Below are positions 12,979-62,030 of a stretch of 64,000 nucleotides of DNA, in pieces. Numbering within the stretch: position 1 is the stretch's first letter; every line of letters begins with the position of its first letter. The stretch lies in NCBI RefSeq assembly GCF_020103725.1, contig NZ_JAHXBG010000001.1, forward strand, positions 124,001 to 188,000, given 5' to 3'. The notes under the pieces are model-generated. The model saw nothing but the letters and a program-made list of their open reading frames with translations, was not told the origin of the DNA and ran no database searches. A program made the position numbers and the translations under genes. This stretch comes from Hyalangium gracile. Its GTDB lineage: Bacteria; Myxococcota; Myxococcia; Myxococcales; Myxococcaceae.

Positions 12979-13578
12979 TCAGGCAGAGGGGGCGCGGTAC
13001 GCGCTCAGCAGGGACTCGAAGGCGCGGCGGGCGCGCTCCTCGGCCTTCGGGTCTCTCATCAGCCGGGCCGCGTGGTGGTAGGCGAGCATGATGCCGTGCA
13101 GCTCGGTGGCGAACTGCTCGGGGTCCACGTCCGGGCGGAAGTGGCCCTCGTTGATGGCGGTGCGCGCCGTCTGGGCCACGCAGTCCAGCCAGTCCTTCTC
13201 GCTCTGCACCAGCTTGTCGCGAGCGGGGCCCGGCGCATCGTCCAGCTCCGCCGCGGCGGCCACGAAGATGCAGCCGCCCTCCAGCGAGGCGCTGCGAGCC
13301 CAGTCCATCCACCGCTCGAAGATGGCGCGCACGCGCGGCTCACCCCGAGGCCGGGCCAGCGCCGGGCGGATGACCACCTGCGTGAAGAGCGCGGTGGCCG
13401 CCTCCAGCACCTCCACCTCCAGCGAGGACTTGGAGCGGAAGTGCGCGAAGAGGCCACTCTTGGAGAGCTGCAGCTCCTCCGCCAGCCCACCGATGGTCAG
13501 CCCCTGCAGGCCCACGCGGCTGGCCAGGCGCACCGCGCGCTCCAGAATCGCCTGCCGTGTGAGCTCGCCCTTTCGCAT
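12979..13578 (-). CDS. TetR/AcrR family transcriptional regulator
   Basis: 199 aa. The N-terminal DNA-binding domain is clear (residues 5-50: TRQAILERAVRLASRVGLQG, then GGLAEELQLSKSGLFAHFRS). The ligand-binding domain contains SLEGGCIFVAAAAELDD, typical of a TetR subgroup with hydrophobic-compound inducers. It is the first gene of a pair with the hydrolase and probably represses it and itself. Confidence 0.9.
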   Translation of the reverse strand: MRKGELTRQAILERAVRLASRVGLQGLTIGGLAEELQLSKSGLFAHFRSKSSLEVEVLEAATALFTQVVIRPALARPRGEPRVRAIFERWMDWARSASLEGGCIFVAAAAELDDAPGPARDKLVQSEKDWLDCVAQTARTAINEGHFRPDVDPEQFATELHGIMLAYHHAARLMRDPKAEERARRAFESLLSAYRAPSA

Positions 13579-13743: not shown

Positions 13744-14538
13744 GTGGCCACTGATCCGAAAAAGCCCGAGGCCGGAGCGGCCCCTCTCGCTTCCGCCCCC
13801 GCTGGCAAGAGCAGCCTCGAAGCCTCGCTCGGGCTGCAGATCCTCTATGTGGAGGATGATCCCGACATCCAGGAGGCGCTCCAGGAGGTGCTGGAGGCGG
13901 CCGGCTACCGGGTGACGGTGGCCTCGACGGCGACGGAGGGCCTGGCCTTCCTGCGCTCGCAGAAGTTCCACCTGGTGATCAGCGACTACAACCTGCCGGA
14001 CCTCAACGGCGGGCGCATGCTCTCGCAGGCGGCCGAGGCGGGCATCCTCAAGTGCGAGTCGCTCATCCTCACCGGCGCCTCGCGGCTGGATGACGTCACC
14101 GCCTACCGGGTCATCCGCAAGCCGGTGGACGTGGACAAGCTGCTGGCGAAGCTGAGCGAGATCCTCGCCCCCGTGCGCGACGAGGAGCTCGCCAAGGCCA
14201 AGGCGCACCTCGAAGTCACCCTCGACCGACACAGCCAGGTGGACAACCCGAAGCGCATCGCCTTCACGCTCTACATCAGCGAGGCGTCCACCGCCTCGCT
14301 CCGAGCCCTCCGCAACCTCCAGAAGCTGCTGGACGGGTATGACGCCTCGCAGATCGACCTGCGCGTCGTGGACCTGTCCAAGGAGCGGCCGGCCTCGTTC
14401 GACGAAGACCGCATCACCTTCACGCCCACGCTCGTGAAGCGCAGCCCCGAGCCGCGCGTGTACCTGCTGGGAACCCTGGAGCACATCCAGTCCGTGGCTG
14501 ACCTGCTCAGCGACGCGAAAGTCGAGCACAAGAAATGA
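13744..14538 (+). CDS. Response regulator receiver fused to a KaiB-like domain
   Basis: 264 aa, GTG start. Residues 30-145 are a receiver domain: acidic pair at 38-39 (VEDD), phospho-acceptor D81 in VISDYNLP, T110 and K126 (RKP). Residues about 172-258 match KaiB: FTLYISEASTASLRALRNL, then IDLRVVDLSKERPASFDEDR and TFTPTLVKRSPEP. KaiB is the thioredoxin-like partner of the clock ATPase KaiC. The stop overlaps the start of a KaiC gene by ATGA, so the two are coupled. Phosphorylation of the receiver could gate KaiB-KaiC binding (inference). No KaiA is seen. Confidence 0.88.
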   Translation: MATDPKKPEAGAAPLASAPAGKSSLEASLGLQILYVEDDPDIQEALQEVLEAAGYRVTVASTATEGLAFLRSQKFHLVISDYNLPDLNGGRMLSQAAEAGILKCESLILTGASRLDDVTAYRVIRKPVDVDKLLAKLSEILAPVRDEELAKAKAHLEVTLDRHSQVDNPKRIAFTLYISEASTASLRALRNLQKLLDGYDASQIDLRVVDLSKERPASFDEDRITFTPTLVKRSPEPRVYLLGTLEHIQSVADLLSDAKVEHKK

Positions 14539-15953
14539 GTCCAGTGGTGAAGGTGCCCACCGGGGTGCCTGGGTTGGATCGAATCACTCACGGAGGGCTG
14601 CCCAAGGGACGCACCACCCTCATCACCGGCAAGAGCGGCGCGGCCAAGAGCATCCTCGCGTTGCAGCTGGCGTGTCACTTCGCCCGCTCGGGCCTCAAGA
14701 CGGTGGTGTTCGCCATCGAGGAGGTGCCCGAGGACCTGATCGACTCGGGAGACAACCTGGGCTTCGGCACGTCGGCGCTGGTGGCCAACGGCTCGCTGAG
14801 GTTCGCGGACCTCACGCGCCTGCCGGACGCGGCGACCATCGTCACGGGTGACTACGACATGGGGGGCATGATCCACCGGGTGGAGATGGCGGCCAGGGAC
14901 TTCGGCGCGCAGGCGCTGGTGCTCGACTCGGCCACCGCGCTGTTCAGCCCTCGCCCGAGCGAGGAGCGGCTGCGCAGCCACTTCTTCCACCTCATCGATG
15001 CGTTCCGCAGGCACGGGCTGACGGCGGTGATGACGGCCGAGGCGCCGGATGACTACGGCCCCCGGACGACGCTGGGCGTGGAGGACTTCGTCTGCGACGC
15101 GGTGCTCGTGCTGCGCAACCTCATCGACAACGAGCGGCGGCGCCGGACGATCGAGGTCCACAAGTACCGGCGCAGCGCGCACCAGAAGGGCGAGTACCCC
15201 TGCACCATCGCCAACAAGGGGCTGATGGTGTTCCCCTTCGGCACGCAGTCCTCCTTCGAGACCTCGGAGCCGAGCCGGTTCTCCAGCGGCTTCGAGGGGC
15301 TGGACTCGATGATGAACGGGGGCTGGCTGCGCGACTCGATCACCATGGCCAGGGGCCCGGCCGGCAGCGGCAAGACGACCATGGCGGGCATGTACGCGCG
15401 CGCCGGAGCGCTGCGCGGCGAGCGGGTGGCCTACTACGGCTTCGAGGAGACGCGGCCCATGCTGCTGCGCAACTTCGCGAGCATGGGCCTGCCGATGGAC
15501 GAGCTGGTGAAGCAGGGCAGGCTCCTGCTGGACTGCCGGTACCCGGAGGCGACCAGCCCGGAGGATCTGCTGGTGGAGCTGCGCCGGAGCCTGGAGGACT
15601 TCAGGCCCTCGCTCATCGTCCTGGACAGCATCTCCTCGGTGGCGCACTCCACCTCGCCCCGCGGCTTCCGCCAGTTCATGGTGGGGTTCGCCTCGCTGGT
15701 GCGCGAGCACAGCCGCAGCGCGCTGCTGACGCAGACCACCAACGACGTGAAGGAGGACGAGCGCACCGCGCCGTTCCTCTCGACGATCGCGGACGCCATC
15801 ATCGCCCTGGACTACCAGCGGCACGGCAAGAGCCTGGTGCGGACCATCAACGTGACGAAGATGCGCGGCTCGGCGCACTCGGACGACGCCTTCCGCCTGC
15901 GCATCCAACCCGGAGGGCTGCGCATCGAGGAGCTGCAGGAGCCCCAGGCCTGA
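14535..15953 (+). CDS. kaiC: KaiC-like double RecA ATPase
   Basis: 472 aa with two KaiC domains. CI (residues 1-235): nucleotide loop 32-39 (GKSGAAKS, lacking the usual Gly before Lys), catalytic E62-E63, Walker B D131. CII (245-472): canonical Walker A 274-281 (GPAGSGKT), E304-E305, Walker B D364. S416-T417 in PFLSTIADAI align with the cyanobacterial autophosphorylation pair S431/T432, and KMRGS (442-446) is conserved. Autokinase activity is therefore plausible. It overlaps the REC-KaiB gene. The role outside cyanobacteria is usually stress or timing related; no rhythmic function can be claimed from sequence. Confidence 0.9.
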   Translation: MSPVVKVPTGVPGLDRITHGGLPKGRTTLITGKSGAAKSILALQLACHFARSGLKTVVFAIEEVPEDLIDSGDNLGFGTSALVANGSLRFADLTRLPDAATIVTGDYDMGGMIHRVEMAARDFGAQALVLDSATALFSPRPSEERLRSHFFHLIDAFRRHGLTAVMTAEAPDDYGPRTTLGVEDFVCDAVLVLRNLIDNERRRRTIEVHKYRRSAHQKGEYPCTIANKGLMVFPFGTQSSFETSEPSRFSSGFEGLDSMMNGGWLRDSITMARGPAGSGKTTMAGMYARAGALRGERVAYYGFEETRPMLLRNFASMGLPMDELVKQGRLLLDCRYPEATSPEDLLVELRRSLEDFRPSLIVLDSISSVAHSTSPRGFRQFMVGFASLVREHSRSALLTQTTNDVKEDERTAPFLSTIADAIIALDYQRHGKSLVRTINVTKMRGSAHSDDAFRLRIQPGGLRIEELQEPQA

Positions 15954-15983: not shown

Positions 15984-16421
15984 TCAGCCCTCGGTGTTGC
16001 GCATGAAGTCGGCGGTCTGGGCGAAGCGCTCCTCGAGGAAGCGCCGCAGGCCGCCGGTGACGCCCCGGGCGTCCATGGCCTTCCGCATGCAGCGCATCCA
16101 CGCATCGCGCATGGCGATGTCCACGGGCACGTGGCCGTGGCGCATGCGCAGGCGGGGGTGGCCGTGGCGCTCGATGTAGTGCTGGGGCCCGCCGAGCCAG
16201 CCGACAAGGAACAGGCCGAAGCGCTCGCGCGTGCCTCGGCTCACCTTGCCGTCCTCCAGCACGTGCAGCCGGGCGAGCGCCGGCTCGGTCGCGTCCATGA
16301 TGTCGTAGAAGGACTCCACGAGCGCGCGCACCGCCTCCTCGCCTCCGATGCGCTGGAAGGGCGTGTCCTCCAGCGAGGGGAGCCAGTCGTCCGAGGCGGG
16401 GGGCTTGAGCTGTGTGGACAT
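15984..16421 (-). CDS. Group II truncated haemoglobin
   Basis: 145 aa from the ATG at 16421. The globin core has FQRIGGEEAVRALVESFYDI, the proximal His in LRMRHG (H95) and Trp in RDAWMRCM (W108), the G8 Trp typical of group II. These small haem proteins bind O2/NO and often protect against oxidative or nitrosative stress. A frame extension to 16454 exists but adds no conserved residues. It lies 37 bases downstream of the exonuclease gene on the same strand. Confidence 0.86.
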   Translation of the reverse strand: MSTQLKPPASDDWLPSLEDTPFQRIGGEEAVRALVESFYDIMDATEPALARLHVLEDGKVSRGTRERFGLFLVGWLGGPQHYIERHGHPRLRMRHGHVPVDIAMRDAWMRCMRKAMDARGVTGGLRRFLEERFAQTADFMRNTEG

Positions 16422-16458
16422 AGCGGTGTTCAACCCGAGGTGGGCGGGCGGCATTCTC

Positions 16459-22179: not shown

Positions 22180-24771
22180 ATGCCTCTCCAACCATCCCAG
22201 GCGGATGCTCAGGCGCGAGATTCATCCTCTTCACGCCCGACCTCGTCTGGCCCGGTGATGACAGTCCAGGAGCAGCTGGAGGCCAGCCGACGTCTGTTGC
22301 ACGCGCTCTCGCAGGTGCACGCCGACTTCATCACCCATGGAGACCACCGGCCCATCTTCGAGCAGCTGCTGGTGCTCATGGTCGAGCTGACGCGCAGCGA
22401 GCGCGGCGTCATCGCGGAGGTCCAGCGCAGTCCGGACGGCGCCCCGGCGCTCCAGCTCCACGCCGTCTGCGCCTGGCCCGACGCGCTGGCGGACCTGCGG
22501 ACCCTGGCCGGCGGCGCGCTCGCCTCGGGTGAGCCCGTGATGCTCCCGGCCCCGGCGCTCCCAGGCGAAGCACTGGACGGGGCGCACCCGCCCGCCTTCC
22601 TCGGGATGCCCTTCAAGCTCCAGGGCGACGTGGTGGGGGTGGTGGGCCTGGGCCTGCGGCCCGGGGGCTACGACGCGTTCCACGTCTCGTTCCTGCAGCC
22701 CGTCCTCACCACCTGCGGCACCCTGATCCACGCCCGGCGAGAGGCCGAGCGGCGCCATCAGGGCGAGCTGGCGCTCACGGCCCAGCAGGCGCTGATGAAG
22801 AAGCTGGCCCTGGTGGCCGCGCGGACGGACAACGCGGTCATCATCACCGACTCCACGGGGCGCACCGAGTGGGTGAACGAGGGCTTCACCCGCATCACCG
22901 GCTACACGCTCGAGGAGACCGTGGGGCGCAAGCCGGGCGAGCTCCTGCAGGGACCGGACACGGACCGCAAGAGCATCGTGGCCATGAGCGAGGCCCTGCA
23001 CCGGGGCGAGGGCATCACCGTCGAGCTGCTCAACTACGGCAAGTCCGGCCGGCCCTACTGGAACCTCATCGAGGTGCAGCCGGTGCACGACGCGGACGGC
23101 AAGATCGTCCAGTTCGTGGCCATCGAGAGCGATGTCACCGCGCGCAAGCAGCTCCAGCAGCAGGTGTCCGAGAGCGCCGAGCGGCTCCGGCTGGCGCTGG
23201 ACAGCGCCGAGGACGGCCTGTGGGACTGGAATGTGCGCACCCACGAGCTCACCGTCAGCCCCCGGTGGCTGCTCATGCTGGGCTATGAGCCCACCCTCAA
23301 GACGAGCTTCGAGTTCTGGAGCCAGCACCTCTGCCACCCGGAGGATCTCCCCGAGGCCCACCGACGGCTGACCGAGCACATGGAGGGGCGCACCCCCATG
23401 TACGAGTTCGAGCACCGCCTGCGCCACAAGGATGGGAGCTGGGTCTGGGTGCTGGGCCGGGCCAAGGTGGTGGAGCGGGACGAGCAGGGCCGCGCCGTGC
23501 GCGTCGTGGGCATCAACTCGGACATCACCTCGCGCCGGCGCGCCCAGGAGCACCTGCAGGCCTTCATCCAGGCCATCCCGGACATGATCCTCCGGGTGCG
23601 CGCGGATGGCCTGTGCCTGGGCTTCAAGCCGTCCGCGCTCGAGCCGACGTTCATGTCCCCCGACGCGTTCCTCGGCAGGAACATCTACGAGACGTCCCTG
23701 CCGGAGCAGCTGCTGACGCACCTGCGGGCCGCGCTCCAGCGCGTCACCCACGACAGCTCGCTGGAGATCTTCGAGTTCCCCATGGAGATGCCCTTCGGCA
23801 TCCACCAGTACGAGGCGCGCGTGGTGCCCAGCGGCCCGGACGAGGGCACCTGCATCGTGCGCAACATCACCGCGCGCAAGCTCGTGGAGGAGCAGCGACG
23901 CCGCCAGCAGGAGCAGCTGGAGGAGCGGGTGCGCCACGCGACGCGCGAGCTGGAGTCGCGCCAGGCCCAGCTCATCCAGTCCGAGAAGCTGGCCTCGCTC
24001 GGGCAGATGGCGGCCAGCATCGCCCACGAGATCAACAACCCGGTGGGCTACGTCTCCAGCAACGTCTCCACGCTGGGCGGCTACATCTCGGTGCTGCGCC
24101 GGCTGCTCGAGCTGCACATGCGGATGGAGGAGGCGCTGCCCCCGGAGGCCCGCGAGGCGGTGGCCGAGCTGCTGGAGCAGATCCGCACCGTGCGCGAGCA
24201 GGAGCACCTGGACGAGCTGCTGCAGGACATGGACGACCTGCTGTCGGACACGAAGGAGGGCACCGCGCGCATCCGCGAGTTCATCCAGGACCTCAAGACG
24301 TTCGTGCGCGAGGAGTCCGGCACCACGCAGCAGGCGGACCTCAACAAGCTGCTGCAGGTGACGCTGCGCATGCTCCGCCACGAGCTGAAGCACAAGGTGC
24401 AGGTGCGCCTGGACTTCGGGCCCATGCCGCTGGTGCGCTGCTACCCCACGCAGCTCAACCAGGTGTTCATGAACCTGCTGCTCAACGCGGCGCAGGCCAT
24501 CGAGCCGCGCGGCGACATCCACATCACCACCCGCCGCGAGGGCAGCGAGGCGGTGGTGTGGATCCGGGACACGGGCCGGGGGATGAGCCAGGAGACGCTG
24601 GAGCGGCTGTTCACGCCCTTCTTCACCACCAAGCCCGCGGGCCAGGGCACAGGCCTGGGCCTGTCCATCTGCTACGCCATCATCAGCCGCCACAAGGGCC
24701 GCATCCAGGTGGACAGCGAGCTGGGCAAGGGCACCACCTTCCTGGTGCGCCTGCCCCTCAGCGAGGAGTGA
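22180..24771 (+). CDS. GAF/multi-PAS sensor histidine kinase
   Basis: 863 aa, no transmembrane helix, so cytoplasmic. Order: GAF (about 30-190), PAS1 (205-325, VIITDSTGRTEWVNEGFTRI; LOV-like but without the flavin-binding Cys), PAS2 (330-450, with a PAC-type WDWNVRTHELTVSP), PAS3 (455-575), coiled coil, HisKA with phospho-acceptor H616 (MAASIAHEINNPVGYVSSN), and HATPase (QVFMNLLLNAAQAI, DTGRGM, GTGLGLSI). No receiver partner lies next to it, so it is an orphan kinase. Confidence 0.9.
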   Translation: MPLQPSQADAQARDSSSSRPTSSGPVMTVQEQLEASRRLLHALSQVHADFITHGDHRPIFEQLLVLMVELTRSERGVIAEVQRSPDGAPALQLHAVCAWPDALADLRTLAGGALASGEPVMLPAPALPGEALDGAHPPAFLGMPFKLQGDVVGVVGLGLRPGGYDAFHVSFLQPVLTTCGTLIHARREAERRHQGELALTAQQALMKKLALVAARTDNAVIITDSTGRTEWVNEGFTRITGYTLEETVGRKPGELLQGPDTDRKSIVAMSEALHRGEGITVELLNYGKSGRPYWNLIEVQPVHDADGKIVQFVAIESDVTARKQLQQQVSESAERLRLALDSAEDGLWDWNVRTHELTVSPRWLLMLGYEPTLKTSFEFWSQHLCHPEDLPEAHRRLTEHMEGRTPMYEFEHRLRHKDGSWVWVLGRAKVVERDEQGRAVRVVGINSDITSRRRAQEHLQAFIQAIPDMILRVRADGLCLGFKPSALEPTFMSPDAFLGRNIYETSLPEQLLTHLRAALQRVTHDSSLEIFEFPMEMPFGIHQYEARVVPSGPDEGTCIVRNITARKLVEEQRRRQQEQLEERVRHATRELESRQAQLIQSEKLASLGQMAASIAHEINNPVGYVSSNVSTLGGYISVLRRLLELHMRMEEALPPEAREAVAELLEQIRTVREQEHLDELLQDMDDLLSDTKEGTARIREFIQDLKTFVREESGTTQQADLNKLLQVTLRMLRHELKHKVQVRLDFGPMPLVRCYPTQLNQVFMNLLLNAAQAIEPRGDIHITTRREGSEAVVWIRDTGRGMSQETLERLFTPFFTTKPAGQGTGLGLSICYAIISRHKGRIQVDSELGKGTTFLVRLPLSEE

Positions 24772-47659: not shown

Positions 47660-47689
47660 CGGCATCCGCAAGGGTGCCGTTTTCTTTTT
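47660..47689 (+). terminator. Rho-independent terminator after the ssrA 3' end
   Basis: Stem CGGCATCC/GGGTGCCG (one G-T pair) with a GCAA loop, followed by TTTTCTTTTT. It stands 35 bases beyond the tmRNA end and would stop a tmRNA transcript before the integrase gene. Confidence 0.75.
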
Positions 47690-47796
47690 ATTTCGGGCGT
47701 TTATGCGTCCGGGGTCATCTTGTCCTGTCCGGCTGCATCCGGCTACGGTGGGGGTACTGGTGGGGTACTCCACCGAACCGAACCGGGAGCGTTGCC

Positions 47797-49062
47797 ATGG
47801 CTGGGGGTATCGACAAGCTGAGCGTCAAGGAGGTCGACGCGCACGTCAAGGAGGCGCGCGGCTGGCTCGCGGCCGACGTGAGGCCGCCCGAGGGGAAGAG
47901 CTGGAAGCTCTCCGACGGCGGGGGGCTGTTCCTCACGGTCACTCCGGCCGGTACTCCCGTCTGGCGCGTGAAGTACCGCTTTGGGGGGAAGGAACGACTG
48001 TTCGCCGCAGGCACGTACCCCCAGATTGGGCTTCAAGCGGCGCGCCTCGCGCGAGCGCGTGTGAAAGACGACCTCGGGAAAGGAAGGGACCCCGTCCAGG
48101 CCCGGCGTGTGAGCCGCGCCGCTGCGGTCACCTCCGCTGGCACCACGTTCGAGTCCGTCGCTGCGGCTTGGCTCGAGAAGAGTCGGCCCGGCTGGAGCCA
48201 GGCCCACTTCGACACGACCGCCGAGACGCTTGAGCGCTACGCGAAGTCGCTCAGGGGCTTTCCGGTCGCTGAGATCACCGATCCCATGGTGGGCACGCTG
48301 ATCGAGCGCGTCGTTGTTGAGCGCGAGAGCATCGACACCGCACGGAAGTTGCGGCAGAGCCTCGCGGGCATCTTCCGCTACGCGATGGCGCGCGGGTTCT
48401 GTACCCGCAACCCGGCGGAGTCCTCCCGAGAGCTGATCCCCCGGCAGCGTAAGAAGGGCCGACGGCCTGCGCTTGAGGAGTTCGCCGCGCTCGGGGACAT
48501 CCTGCGGAAGGCGAGCGCGGCGAATCTGTCCAGCGCCGTCCGCATGGCACACCGACTCTGCGCCTTCACCGCAGCGCGCGTCGGAAACGTCATCGCAGCC
48601 GAGTGGGCCGAGTTCGCAGAGCTGGACGCGGAGGTGCCAACCTGGGTCATCCCGCGCGCGAAGATGAAGGCCCAGGATCGCCACCACGACCACCGGGTCA
48701 TCCTCGGGCCCGCGATCGCGGATGAACTCAGAGCGTGGCGCAGGGTGAACGGCTCAGGGCGCTGGCTGTTCCCGTCCCTCACGGACCCCAGCGAGCACAT
48801 CGTGTCCGAGTCGCTCAGCAAGCTGTATCGGGTGACGCTCGGCCTCAAGGACAAGCACACGCCCCACGGCTGGCGCGCGGCGTTCGCCACGCTGGCCAAG
48901 GAGAACAAGTTCGATCCGGATGCCGTCGAAATGGCGCTCGACCACGTCCACGCGAGCGAGATTGTCCGGGCGTATGACCGTGGCGCACGACTGCCCGAAC
49001 GGGTCCGCTTGGCGCACTGGTGGTGTGAACAGCTCGTGCGTGCTGAACGGGGTGCAGCGTGA
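47797..49062 (+). CDS. int: P4-type tyrosine integrase
   Basis: 421 aa from the ATG at 47797. The arm-binding N-terminal domain (DUF4102) reads WKLSDGGGLFLTVTPAGTPV then VWRVKYRFGGKERLFAAGTY. The catalytic domain shows Arg in TAARVGNVIAAEW, HGWR in PHGWRAAFATLAKE, His in ALDHVHASEIVRAYDR and the nucleophile Tyr in AYDR. It should recombine at the ssrA 3' end. The first gene inside the left repeat, reading inward, as in other P4-like elements. The stop overlaps the next start (GTGA). Confidence 0.93.
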   Translation: MAGGIDKLSVKEVDAHVKEARGWLAADVRPPEGKSWKLSDGGGLFLTVTPAGTPVWRVKYRFGGKERLFAAGTYPQIGLQAARLARARVKDDLGKGRDPVQARRVSRAAAVTSAGTTFESVAAAWLEKSRPGWSQAHFDTTAETLERYAKSLRGFPVAEITDPMVGTLIERVVVERESIDTARKLRQSLAGIFRYAMARGFCTRNPAESSRELIPRQRKKGRRPALEEFAALGDILRKASAANLSSAVRMAHRLCAFTAARVGNVIAAEWAEFAELDAEVPTWVIPRAKMKAQDRHHDHRVILGPAIADELRAWRRVNGSGRWLFPSLTDPSEHIVSESLSKLYRVTLGLKDKHTPHGWRAAFATLAKENKFDPDAVEMALDHVHASEIVRAYDRGARLPERVRLAHWWCEQLVRAERGAA

Positions 49063-57535: not shown

Positions 57536-57656
57536 GCTGTAGCTCAGGCTCGCGCCGCTCCCAACCCCCGGCGTCGTTCATCCTGCTAGCACATGCCGGG
57601 TAGTGTTTCGCTCCGTTGCGCGGCGCCCTCTTGCGCGCTGCGAGGAGTTGATCCGC

Positions 57657-58856
57657 ATGGCCACTGCAAGGCTCCCCTGGAGCGTCCCGGGCGTGATTCT
57701 CTTCTCCCAGGGCGAGTTCTCGTATGAGGTCGATCTGTCGAGGGGGTTGGTCGAGGACTTGGCACACTCGAAGTTGGGGGAGCGGACCTTCCTTGCGTGG
57801 GAGCGCACGACCGCGCAGCGCATCCGGCCGGTCATCGTCCGCAGCTTGCCCCCTACGTCATCAGGGGATCTGGAAGCGCTCGACAGGGTGCGCTTACGGC
57901 TCCGCGAGGAAGCACGTCTGGCCACCTACCTGCAACACCCGAGGATCGCCCGAATCTTCGGGATCCATGAGGTCCAGGGCGTTCTCTACGTGGTGTCCGA
58001 GGTTGTCGAGGGCACTTCGATCAACACCCTGATCAGCTATTCGAGCATGCGCGAAGCACCCTTTTCCCCCGCGTTCTGCATGTACGTGGGTGCCGAGATT
58101 GCCAACGCCCTGCATTACGCGCACACCTGCAAGGACGAGAGCGGCGCCCCGCTGGGCATCGTTCATCGAGACGTGAACCCCGTTCGCCTCTACCTGGGGC
58201 CGGAGGGTGAAGTCGTGCTGACGGACTTCGCCCGTGCACGTTCCCTGCTCCCGGGGCGGGTGGAAACGACGCTCCCGCGCCCTCAAGGTGACGTCGCCTA
58301 CTGCTCACCAGAGGCGCTTCTCGGCGAAGAGACGGATCCACGCTCGGATCTGTTCGCGCTCGGGCTGGTGCTGCTGGAACTGGCCACCTTGCGCCACCTC
58401 TACAGCACGGGCAATGCACGATCCGAAGACTTGGAGGCGGCCCTAACACCAGCGGTCAAGGATCAGGTTCTCGACGCCGCAATTACGGCAGCGGAGGCAG
58501 ACCTTCCGGCCCATGCGGAGGACTGCATCCTGCGGGCTGCCACGTTCGCCCCGCAGGACGTGGAGGAACTCACCGAGCCGCTCCAGCCCCCGCTGCGCTC
58601 CATCATCCGCAGGTTGATCCAGCGCAAGCCGGAAGATCGCTATCCGTCGGCGGCTGCGCTGGAGGCGGATTTGCGGGCGGGCCTCGCCACACTCGGCGCT
58701 CCCTACGGAGCCAAGGAGGCGCTAGAGGAGGGCCGCAATTCACGCGACGGGGCGAGCATGAATCGGCGCGTGATCGGGCCCACGAGCGAGGATCAGTTGC
58801 CCCCCGTCATCGTGGCGGAGGAGGACAGCATCACCAGGCGGGGCAGGACCGACTAG
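57657..58856 (+). CDS. Ser/Thr pseudokinase-like protein
   Basis: 399 aa from the ATG at 57657, with GAGGAG upstream. The kinase fold is recognisable (EEARLATYLQHPRIARIFGI, VLYVVSEVVEGTSINTL, QGDVAYCSPEALLGEETDPR, SDLFALGLVLLELATLRHLY), but key residues deviate. The ATP Lys position is R62 (VIVRSL), the catalytic loop is HRDVNPVRLYL (N177 replaced by R), and DFG is DFA (190-192). No Gly loop is clear. It is therefore likely non-catalytic or much weakened. A C-terminal tail carries RNSRDGASMNRRV; this tail is duplicated at 62125. Confidence 0.8.
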   Translation: MATARLPWSVPGVILFSQGEFSYEVDLSRGLVEDLAHSKLGERTFLAWERTTAQRIRPVIVRSLPPTSSGDLEALDRVRLRLREEARLATYLQHPRIARIFGIHEVQGVLYVVSEVVEGTSINTLISYSSMREAPFSPAFCMYVGAEIANALHYAHTCKDESGAPLGIVHRDVNPVRLYLGPEGEVVLTDFARARSLLPGRVETTLPRPQGDVAYCSPEALLGEETDPRSDLFALGLVLLELATLRHLYSTGNARSEDLEAALTPAVKDQVLDAAITAAEADLPAHAEDCILRAATFAPQDVEELTEPLQPPLRSIIRRLIQRKPEDRYPSAAALEADLRAGLATLGAPYGAKEALEEGRNSRDGASMNRRVIGPTSEDQLPPVIVAEEDSITRRGRTD

Positions 58857-59823: not shown

Positions 59824-61134
59824 ATGAGACGACTCAAATCAATATCGATCACGGGTTTGTTTGGGAAACTCAATCATGCCATCACATTGAATCAGGAGCG
59901 CGGCATCACCATCATACACGGAGCTAATGGGACGGGTAAAACCACTGTTCTCAAAATTGTGAGCCAAATCTCGCGCACCATTCCCTCCTTCTTGGCGCGC
60001 CTTAATTTCAAGCAAATTAAGCTTGGTTTTCAGGACTCTCACGCGCTCACAATCCACAAGGATGGTGAGCGTCATCTTCATTTTGAGCTAACGCAGGGTA
60101 AAGCTAAGTTGGGTGATTTCAATACCAAGCGACTTGCCTCCATCCGCCCAGAATTCATCGCTTACGCAGTTGAGACTGGTGAAGAATCAATTCGCCCTCT
60201 CGGTTCCAACCGCTGGCTCGTTGCCAACGATCAGGTCGTTGCCACTGAGGATCTCTGGGAGCATATCCCTTTTGAACGACTGCTCCGAACGGGGAAGCAG
60301 CGAAGGGCATCTCTCGCAGAACTCCCTTCATGGCTTACAGATTTCTGGAAAGACTTTGATTGCACTCTGATAGAGGAGCAGCGACTACTGAGGGTCGAGG
60401 AGGATAGAAAACGAGGGAGGCCGCTTTTTAAACGAGTCGTGGAGGATTACGCCGACAAATTGCGGTCGCAGATCAAAGACGTGCTTGGCGGTTATGCGGA
60501 GCACTCGCAACAACTAGATCGCACATTCCCGCGAAGAGTCGTGGATGCGCTTGAATCACCATCGCCCGATTTCGCCGAACTATCACAGCATCTCGACAAA
60601 ATAGAGAAGCGACGCGAGGAACTTCATCGAGCTGGCTTGATCGAAAAAGAGCCGGCTCTTGTTCAAATTGACCCCCAGAAATTAAAGAGGGAAGAAGTAG
60701 CTCAGATTCTCTCGGTCTATACTAAGGACACCCAGACAAAACTTGAGAAGTTTGACGACATTTACAGGCGCGTTACTCTGTTTGAGGAGCTAATCAACTC
60801 GCACTTTACGCGCAAATTCGTCAAGGTGTCCAAGGACAGGGGCCTCCATCTCGTTACTGACAACAACGAGCATCTTGATCCTGCCTCGTTGTCATCGGGG
60901 GAGCAGCATATACTTGTGTTGGTGTATGAGTTGATCTTTGGTGACATCCGACAGAACCACTTGGTGCTGATTGACGAGCCGGAACTTTCGTTGCATCCAC
61001 TGTGGCAATTGCGCTTTATAGATGACTTGGAAAAGATCCGAAGCATCAATAGAATGGACTTCGTGTTGGCAACCCATTCGCCACAGATTATTGGCGACAA
61101 ATGGCCCCTTACTCAGGAATTGTCGGTGTCATGA
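59824..61134 (+). CDS. ariA: AAA/ABC-type ATPase, AriA-like (PARIS defence)
   Basis: 436 aa. Walker A GANGTGKT at 33-40 close to the N-terminus; a long central coiled or helical insert (about 150-330, with KIEKRREELHRAG); ABC-type signature LSSGEQ (356-361); Walker B LVLIDEPELSLHP (about 380-392); switch His in LATHSPQII (about 418). This layout is the AAA_15/AAA_21 form of AriA. In known PARIS systems AriA senses anti-restriction phage proteins and activates AriB. GC is visibly lower than the flanks. It overlaps the next gene by ATGA. Confidence 0.78.
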   Translation: MRRLKSISITGLFGKLNHAITLNQERGITIIHGANGTGKTTVLKIVSQISRTIPSFLARLNFKQIKLGFQDSHALTIHKDGERHLHFELTQGKAKLGDFNTKRLASIRPEFIAYAVETGEESIRPLGSNRWLVANDQVVATEDLWEHIPFERLLRTGKQRRASLAELPSWLTDFWKDFDCTLIEEQRLLRVEEDRKRGRPLFKRVVEDYADKLRSQIKDVLGGYAEHSQQLDRTFPRRVVDALESPSPDFAELSQHLDKIEKRREELHRAGLIEKEPALVQIDPQKLKREEVAQILSVYTKDTQTKLEKFDDIYRRVTLFEELINSHFTRKFVKVSKDRGLHLVTDNNEHLDPASLSSGEQHILVLVYELIFGDIRQNHLVLIDEPELSLHPLWQLRFIDDLEKIRSINRMDFVLATHSPQIIGDKWPLTQELSVS

Positions 61135-62030
61135 TTCAAAACGGACATACCGTTGCTAATACAGTCATGATGGTAAGGGCTGCACAGGTCAAGAAGAAAC
61201 CCATCGTGCTTGTCGAGGGCAGTAAAGATCACAAAGCGCTTGAGCATTGTCTTGGGGAGCGCGTTGAGTTGATCCCGGCGTATGGTAAAGACCTCGTCAT
61301 TGCTGGCGCAAAGGTACTCCACGACGAATTAAACCAGTTCGGTTGGTACATTGCGGTAGTTGACGCGGACTTTGATCGAATACTTGGCATCGAGAATGCG
61401 CATGCAGTCGTCCTCGTGTCGGATGCGCACGACATGGAGTGCGAGTACGTCAAGAGTTATGCCATGGAGAAGGTGCTTCGCGAATATGGCTCGCGCAGTA
61501 AAATCAAGCGCCACTTCAATGTCGAGGATGTGTCAAATACGAGCGTTACGGCAGAGCATGTCCGTCAAGCCATTTTCGGTCCGGCCTCTGTCTTCGGCGC
61601 GGCGCGCCTCGTCAACGCAAGACACAAGCTTAATCTCGACTTCAAGGAGATTCGGCACGACAAGGCGCTAGAGCCTAAAACGATCAACGTCAAAGTAGAT
61701 CGTCTCGTTGAGCTTGTTGTTATCAAAAATGCAGACAGGATTGTTGATAGGTCGTGGCTTATCAGTGAGGTCGAGCTTGTTCTTGGGGAGAAACACGAGC
61801 CGTGGCAGCTTTGTCAGGGACATGATGTCGTCAAGATTGTGGCATTGGGATTGCGCCGATTATGGAGTTCTCAATCTCCAGATGAGGATACTATCGAGAA
61901 GGCGCTAAGGCTTGCTTTTGATGTTGAGTGTCTGAGGGGCAGTGCATGTGGCAGCGCCATACTCAAGTTTATCGAAGCGTTCGAGACTCGCGGCGCTACG
62001 GTCACAACAAGCGGAAGCGCCTCGGCGTAG
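61131..62030 (+). CDS. ariB: DUF4435/TOPRIM effector, AriB-like (PARIS defence)
   Basis: 299 aa from the ATG at 61131 (ATGA overlap with the ATPase); an in-frame ATG at 61101 is the longer option. TOPRIM acidic residues: E29 in VLVEGSKD, then VVDADFD (D78, D80, D82). The following segment SDAHDMECEYVKSYAMEKVL is conserved in DUF4435 proteins. In PARIS, AriB is a nuclease (tRNA-cleaving) released by AriA. The C-terminal half is helical. Codon use is low-GC like its partner, so the two moved together. Confidence 0.78.
   Translation: MIQNGHTVANTVMMVRAAQVKKKPIVLVEGSKDHKALEHCLGERVELIPAYGKDLVIAGAKVLHDELNQFGWYIAVVDADFDRILGIENAHAVVLVSDAHDMECEYVKSYAMEKVLREYGSRSKIKRHFNVEDVSNTSVTAEHVRQAIFGPASVFGAARLVNARHKLNLDFKEIRHDKALEPKTINVKVDRLVELVVIKNADRIVDRSWLISEVELVLGEKHEPWQLCQGHDVVKIVALGLRRLWSSQSPDEDTIEKALRLAFDVECLRGSACGSAILKFIEAFETRGATVTTSGSASA

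Follow-up and report, generated by a model that had tools for sequence, protein, structure and literature searches.

The window analysed here is a 64,000-nucleotide stretch, with a window G+C content of about 0.69, of the 11.7 Mb genome of the presumably heterotrophic myxobacterium Hyalangium gracile, and on its plus strand a gene encoding a receiver domain fused to a KaiB domain (REC-KaiB) runs directly into a kaiC gene. The features of this pair and of its two flanks are as follows.

12979-13578, minus strand: TetR-type regulator gene, divergent, upstream of the pair (flank)
13744-14538, plus strand: REC-KaiB fusion gene, 264 aa, GTG start (open reading frame, Pfam and alignment)
13840-14154, plus strand: receiver domain, residues 33-137 (Pfam Response_reg PF00072, E 7.9e-17)
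13984-13986, plus strand: Asp81 codon, expected phospho-acceptor, invariant in 8/8 fusions and across 25 receiver rows
14155-14268, plus strand: linker, into which receiver alpha-5 continues as a helix to residue 164 in the predicted model
14269-14499, plus strand: KaiB domain, residues 176-252 (PF07689, E 3.1e-14)
14535-15953, plus strand: KaiC gene, 472 aa, ATG start, CI and CII ATPase domains
14535-14538, plus strand: stop/start overlap ATGA, the same 4-nt overlap in 7/7 module loci (those with the REC-KaiB/KaiC pair)
14718-14723, plus strand: E62-E63, the CI EE pair, invariant in 7/7 module KaiCs
14826-14861, plus strand: B-loop region, residues 98-109, where KaiB is expected to dock, kept in 14/14 KaiB-neighbour KaiCs
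15444-15449, plus strand: E304-E305, the CII EE pair, invariant in 7/7 module KaiCs
15780-15785, plus strand: S416-T417, at the alignment position of the clock-KaiC S-T phosphosite pair, 7/7
15984-16454, minus strand: truncated-globin gene, downstream of the pair (flank)

An earlier note on this DNA had proposed a receiver fused to a KaiB-like domain, and Pfam bears this out, as both families are recognised within one open reading frame. The KaiB domain scores 52.9 bits against a PF07689 cut-off of 27, also matches solved KaiB chains in a PDB search, and is the only PF07689 match in the genome; our domain search of the protein recognised nothing beyond REC and KaiB. Evaluating the receiver for its expected residues, we found the acidic pair E37-D38, D81, which we take from family knowledge to be the phospho-acceptor, T110 and K126, with D38, D81, T110 and K126 invariant in all eight single-frame fusions aligned. 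The protein is not a SasA-type kinase, its KaiB domain being joined to a receiver without a histidine kinase, and our profile of the REC-KaiB subfamily (profile A1) lies nearer KaiB (E 1e-13) than SasA (E 5.1e-4 for the SasA domain 1t4y).

Structure prediction for the full-length protein, with the window protein and 24 receiver rows as input, resolved the receiver well (most blocks at pLDDT >90) and gave it a last helix spanning residues 130-164; the KaiB part of this model stayed mostly at pLDDT <60 because the supplied alignment covered the receiver alone. Modelled by itself, the KaiB part showed strand-helix-strand and then strand-helix, a thioredoxin-like order, at a mean pLDDT of 54 that is too weak for use, and a fold search with the full REC-KaiB model returned chiefly receivers and response regulators among the best 50 matches listed. 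Comparing a profile of nine KaiB domains of the subfamily with cyanobacterial KaiB revealed a three-residue deletion at I88-G89-L90, seen in all the printed alignments that reach that far (four of five) and lying at a short end where an ungapped placement is possible. The Asp aligned with KaiB D91 is invariant in the nine domains, and the double change G89A and D91R has served to lock KaiB in its fold-switched state (PMC6378743).

The partner gene likewise agreed with the earlier note, which had described a kaiC overlapping the fusion gene and retaining S416-T417, the EE motifs and KMRGS: the two genes share four nucleotides, and the S-T pair, both EE pairs and K442-M-R-G-S446 are invariant in the seven module KaiCs aligned. 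Of the features of a clock-type KaiC, the protein has two ATPase domains with Walker A motifs and EE pairs and an S-T pair in CII; its best solved chain is 8zn5 (E 3.3e-107), and it passes PRK09302 (428 bits against a cut-off of 408) and fails TIGR02655 circ_KaiC (338 bits against 546). The CI Walker A motif reads GKSGAAKS, with Ala for the last Gly, in five of the seven and ends in AGKS in two. Module KaiCs have 8-20 residues past position 460, versus 35-113 in seven other KaiCs encoded beside KaiB, and their profile aligns to S. elongatus KaiC up to about residue 480 of 519; they stop before the A-loop, the KaiA site, which in S. elongatus comprises residues 488-497 (PMC6378743). KaiA itself, absent according to the earlier note, was not found as Pfam PF07688 at E<=0.1 in any of 12 genomes (12/12), in a search that could miss KaiA3-like proteins and whose control, S. 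elongatus, the only cyanobacterial genome searched, was positive.

Docking of KaiB takes place at the B-loop, KaiC residues 116-123 (PMC12084410), and we compared this segment in 20 KaiCs comprising the seven module proteins, seven others encoded beside KaiB and six paralogues from the window's genome. All 14 KaiB-neighbour KaiCs possess the B-loop segment, two residues shorter in two of them, together with the CI EE pair, versus a B-loop gap, just one CI Glu and a missing S-T pair in all six paralogues. The module KaiC is the sole keeper of the B-loop among the seven double-domain KaiC-like proteins of this genome, and it is the gene of this one B-loop KaiC that overlaps the gene of the genome's only KaiB domain. 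Keepers and gapped proteins belong to different KaiC subfamilies, so the contrast shows KaiC type and not independent events.

Relatives of the fusion are few. KaiB matches occur in 16 of 147 genomes of the class, and profile A1 matches 19 of 195 genomes of the phylum, nine of them at 127 bits or above (the window's genome, G083, G043, G045, G046, G047, G048, G137 and G007) and the other ten at 58.4 bits or below. Receiver and KaiB share one frame in eight of these nine high scorers; in the draft genome G007 they occupy two overlapping frames, and this genome was excluded from alignments A2 and A3. In seven of the nine (the window's genome and six others of its family) kaiC follows REC-KaiB directly with the 4-nt overlap, whereas G137, a draft given as 96% complete, has a REC-KaiB relative but yielded no KaiC at E<=1e-20. 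In G007 a KaiC relative in two frames (553 and 92 bits) lies on a separate short contig. Module-type KaiC, sought in 15 chosen genomes, scores 918-970 bits in the six other pair-bearing ones, and in six other genomes of the window's genus KaiB was not matched and KaiC reached at most 155 bits against the module profile. We also observed in G007 (L276:2-2254, minus strand) a PAS-GGDEF-EAL gene that follows the module-type kaiC on the same strand and runs off the contig, which makes c-di-GMP one candidate output in that genome.

The genes surrounding the seven pairs form three sets (window/G083; G043/G046; G045/G048, with G047 sharing one neighbour), and across these three neighbourhoods the REC-KaiB/KaiC pair is the only feature common to all seven loci; among the six other loci, G083 alone has both the TetR-type and the truncated-globin flank. 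A KaiB tree, which has few columns and many unresolved forks, places the nine domains in one group (support 100/99). Estimates of dN/dS (Nei-Gojobori) for the four closest pairs were 0.02-0.44 for REC, 0.23-0.37 for KaiB and 0.24-0.35 for KaiC, and two wider pairs gave 0.21 and 0.77 for REC, 0.36 and 0.53 for KaiB and 0.31 and 0.45 for KaiC. The linker diverges between branches, with 0.82-0.88 in these wider comparisons (window's genome with G043 and with G045), and the REC value climbs to 0.77 at the larger distance to G043. From these wider pairs we read a receiver that has strongly diverged towards the G043/G046 branch, where the residues of its phosphorylation site are nevertheless kept.

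Two trivial origins of the fusion could be set aside. Chance is ruled out by the E-values, the recurrence of the pair in six other genomes and the dN/dS of the four closest pairs, which also speak against a pseudogene, and an assembly artefact that fused two genes was rejected in view of the single frame in eight genomes, three of them single-contig (G043, G047 and G048). Wider scans of the sequence added little: viral contigs held no KaiB or KaiC relatives, plasmids held one distant KaiB, and a scan of genome contigs gave 58 loci with receiver matches, none spanning the whole KaiB part. An Rfam search gave no match, a promoter scan was without a hit, and the single terminator-like site, which is on the minus strand, is as expected by chance.

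Separately from the pair, the right end of the window, where G+C drops to 0.58, carries a PARIS-like pair comprising an AriA-type ATPase gene (59824-61134, plus strand; PADLOC 3.6e-26, with PtuA models close behind) and, as its second gene, AriB (61101-62030, plus strand; 4e-13). The same stretch has a phage-type integrase gene (47674-49062, plus strand) and a Ser/Thr-kinase-like gene (57603-58856); we take it for a probable mobile defence island.

Beyond the phylum we searched 1433 genomes, taken from the phyla of five loci; KaiB was matched in 110 of them, with scores no higher than 62.1 bits. Fusions were sought there in extracted loci, leaving out several long-frame matches without a locus (G574, G750, G1512, G1554 and others), and this revealed one further REC-KaiB (L272:1615-4490) in G1012, a genome sampled from the same phylum as an Anaerolineae locus. 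Its KaiB domain sits apart from the nine in the KaiB tree and has a long branch, a placement from which it is probably a separate fusion event. The G1012 gene shares 4 nt with the gene upstream of it, which encodes a histidine kinase with 7TM, PAS, HisKA and HATPase parts. This arrangement hints at the partner kinases of KaiB-fused receivers more directly than any other feature we found, and this 1.4 Mb genome, which may be incomplete, has no KaiC at E<=1e-20.

Other Kai arrangements came up as well. In G1120 (L184:1495-3195, minus strand) PAS domains are fused to KaiB (KaiB E 1.7e-23, two PAS_3 stretches), which is another sensor-KaiB architecture, and in G051 (L104:4672-8413) kaiC, a free kaiB and a PAS-HisKA-HATPase-REC gene follow one another with overlaps; in the tree, no KaiB lies nearer to the REC-KaiB clade than this free one (99/83). 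Two tandem kaiB genes lie a few hundred bases apart in many non-cyanobacterial genomes (e.g., G271, G461, G1331, G1355 and G1559). In G128 (L102:4794-8001) and G109 (L103:4573-7856) a REC-REC protein precedes a free kaiB and a tail-bearing kaiC, a gene order that matches kaiA3-kaiB3-kaiC3. The C-terminal domain of these REC-REC proteins is unclassified; we rejected its assignment to KaiA, as Pfam gave no match and the PDB searches returned no KaiA chain, with a diverged KaiA3-type domain being possible. We likewise rejected the idea that a KaiA3-like gene gave rise to REC-KaiB when it lost its last domain: the window's receiver is 30% and 29% identical to the first receivers of G128 and G109, unrelated receivers are equally close (25-35%), and the KaiB domains do not group.

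To interpret the pair, we start from what is encoded, an intact REC-KaiB together with a KaiC that has its EE pairs, S-T pair and B-loop and a tail short of the A-loop. We consider the chances about even that this pair works as a KaiA-less KaiBC switch or hourglass-like timer with the KaiB-fused receiver as its input port. A histidine kinase encoded elsewhere would phosphorylate Asp81, and this could alter receiver dimerisation, or the packing of the receiver on KaiB, through the long alpha-5/linker helix, which would free or hide the face with which KaiB docks on the CI B-loop. Docking would then alter the CI ATPase and shift CII from autokinase activity towards dephosphorylation. The KaiC, having no A-loop, may autophosphorylate constitutively, like R. 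sphaeroides KaiC with its exposed A-loop, in which case REC-KaiB would be the regulated step; the direction of control between REC-KaiB and KaiC, and any rhythm, are what we infer here. Precedents exist for parts of this scheme, as R. sphaeroides KaiBC works without KaiA, with KaiB binding raising the KaiC ATPase (PMC10076222), and as the CikA pseudo-receiver binds KaiB in trans (PMC12632262).

This proposal builds on the earlier note, which had cast KaiB as the output of a working response regulator acting on KaiC, and that idea survives in part. The intact receiver site, the B-loop copy, the paired genes and the second REC-KaiB overlapping a kinase gene give it indirect support, and G137 and G1012, which encode REC-KaiB and yielded no KaiC, speak against an obligate link to KaiC. 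The co-occurrence with module-type KaiC, the short KaiC tail, the lack of a Pfam KaiA and the kinase gene in the G051 row count for the proposal as well. Against the proposal are also the REC dN/dS towards G043 and the lack of a kinase gene adjoining the pair, the nearest full kinase seen lying at 22180-24771, about 6 kb downstream. A bolder version, which we advance tentatively and regard as somewhat doubtful, is that the receiver, instead of slow fold-switching or KaiA, sets the time of KaiB docking on KaiC; if true, the paired losses of the KaiC A-loop and the KaiB G89 segment would mark self-timed clock steps replaced by two-component control.

The deletion at the fold-switch site can be read another way, as it is what one might expect of a domain locked, like that of SasA, into a single fold. 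The main rival, which we judge unlikely, is a SasA-like output whose KaiB domain would tether the receiver to KaiC depending on the state of KaiC, so that KaiC would control the amount of free receiver available to a two-component pathway. The B-loop site is one for which SasA competes with fold-switched KaiB (PMC6378743), and REC and KaiB are the only domains recognised in the fusion, which suits this reading; however, the fusion carries a receiver and no kinase, and the gene of its G1012 counterpart adjoins a kinase gene, as one would expect for the target of a kinase, in a genome without a KaiC match.

The missing adjoining kinase and the strong divergence of the receiver between branches are also what one would see if the receiver were a dimerisation or scaffold part that does not switch, with KaiB acting constitutively and the ATP/ADP ratio, which KaiBC of R. 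sphaeroides follows without KaiA (PMC10076222), serving as the cue. Four phosphorylation-site residues invariant in 8/8 fusions, and the REC dN/dS of 0.02-0.44 in the four closest pairs, make this improbable. Least probable of all, and to our minds very much so, is that the main target of REC-KaiB is some protein other than KaiC, with KaiB as a thioredoxin-like docking fold: G137 and G1012 would fit this, but one is a draft and the other may be incomplete, and the overlapping pair in 7/7 module loci, the joint presence with module KaiC and the kept B-loop argue against it.

The pair can be placed among known Kai systems. One comparison is with the myxobacterial KaiC homologues, for which 1-7 copies per genome, no kaiA, few kaiB and nine KaiCs with both phosphosites are described (PMC11832031), features that the window's genome resembles; that study states that myxobacterial KaiCs have no B-loop sequence, whereas the module KaiC subfamily keeps it, and the available part of its account does not include a REC-KaiB fusion. 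Nor did the available part of PMC5520375 mention a KaiB fusion, and a receiver-KaiB fusion was not found among the literature matches listed (open-licence papers, mostly as titles and abstract starts). Heterotroph kaiBC and kaiC operons resemble the pair in linking KaiC genes to two-component genes, adjoining kinases, GGDEF/EAL proteins or single receivers (PMC3164672), but these are separate neighbour genes, in contrast to a receiver fused to KaiB.

With the R. sphaeroides KaiBC timer (PMC10076222) the pair shares KaiB and KaiC, two phosphosites, EE pairs and the lack of KaiA; there, however, KaiB is free and KaiC has a C-terminal extension of about 50 residues with a coiled coil, whereas the window's KaiB carries a receiver and its KaiC is truncated before the A-loop. 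In Synechocystis KaiA3-KaiB3-KaiC3 (PMC11372060) a Kai protein likewise includes a receiver that has its Asp; the receiver is joined to a KaiA-like domain in KaiA3 and to KaiB in the window, where no KaiA was found. SasA (PMC6378743) joins a KaiB-type domain to a two-component part as well, pairing a KaiB-like domain with a histidine kinase, as opposed to a receiver and a domain closer to KaiB in the window. KaiA3 (REC-KaiA) and SasA (KaiB-like domain and kinase) are the nearest known designs. The role and input of KaiBC in non-photosynthetic bacteria are largely open, and in this case the KaiB protein itself contains what may be an input port, making REC-KaiB a natural KaiB whose docking on KaiC may be switched by phosphorylation. 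KaiBC without KaiA was already known, and our comparison suggests that what is new here is a KaiBC system with an input domain on KaiB.
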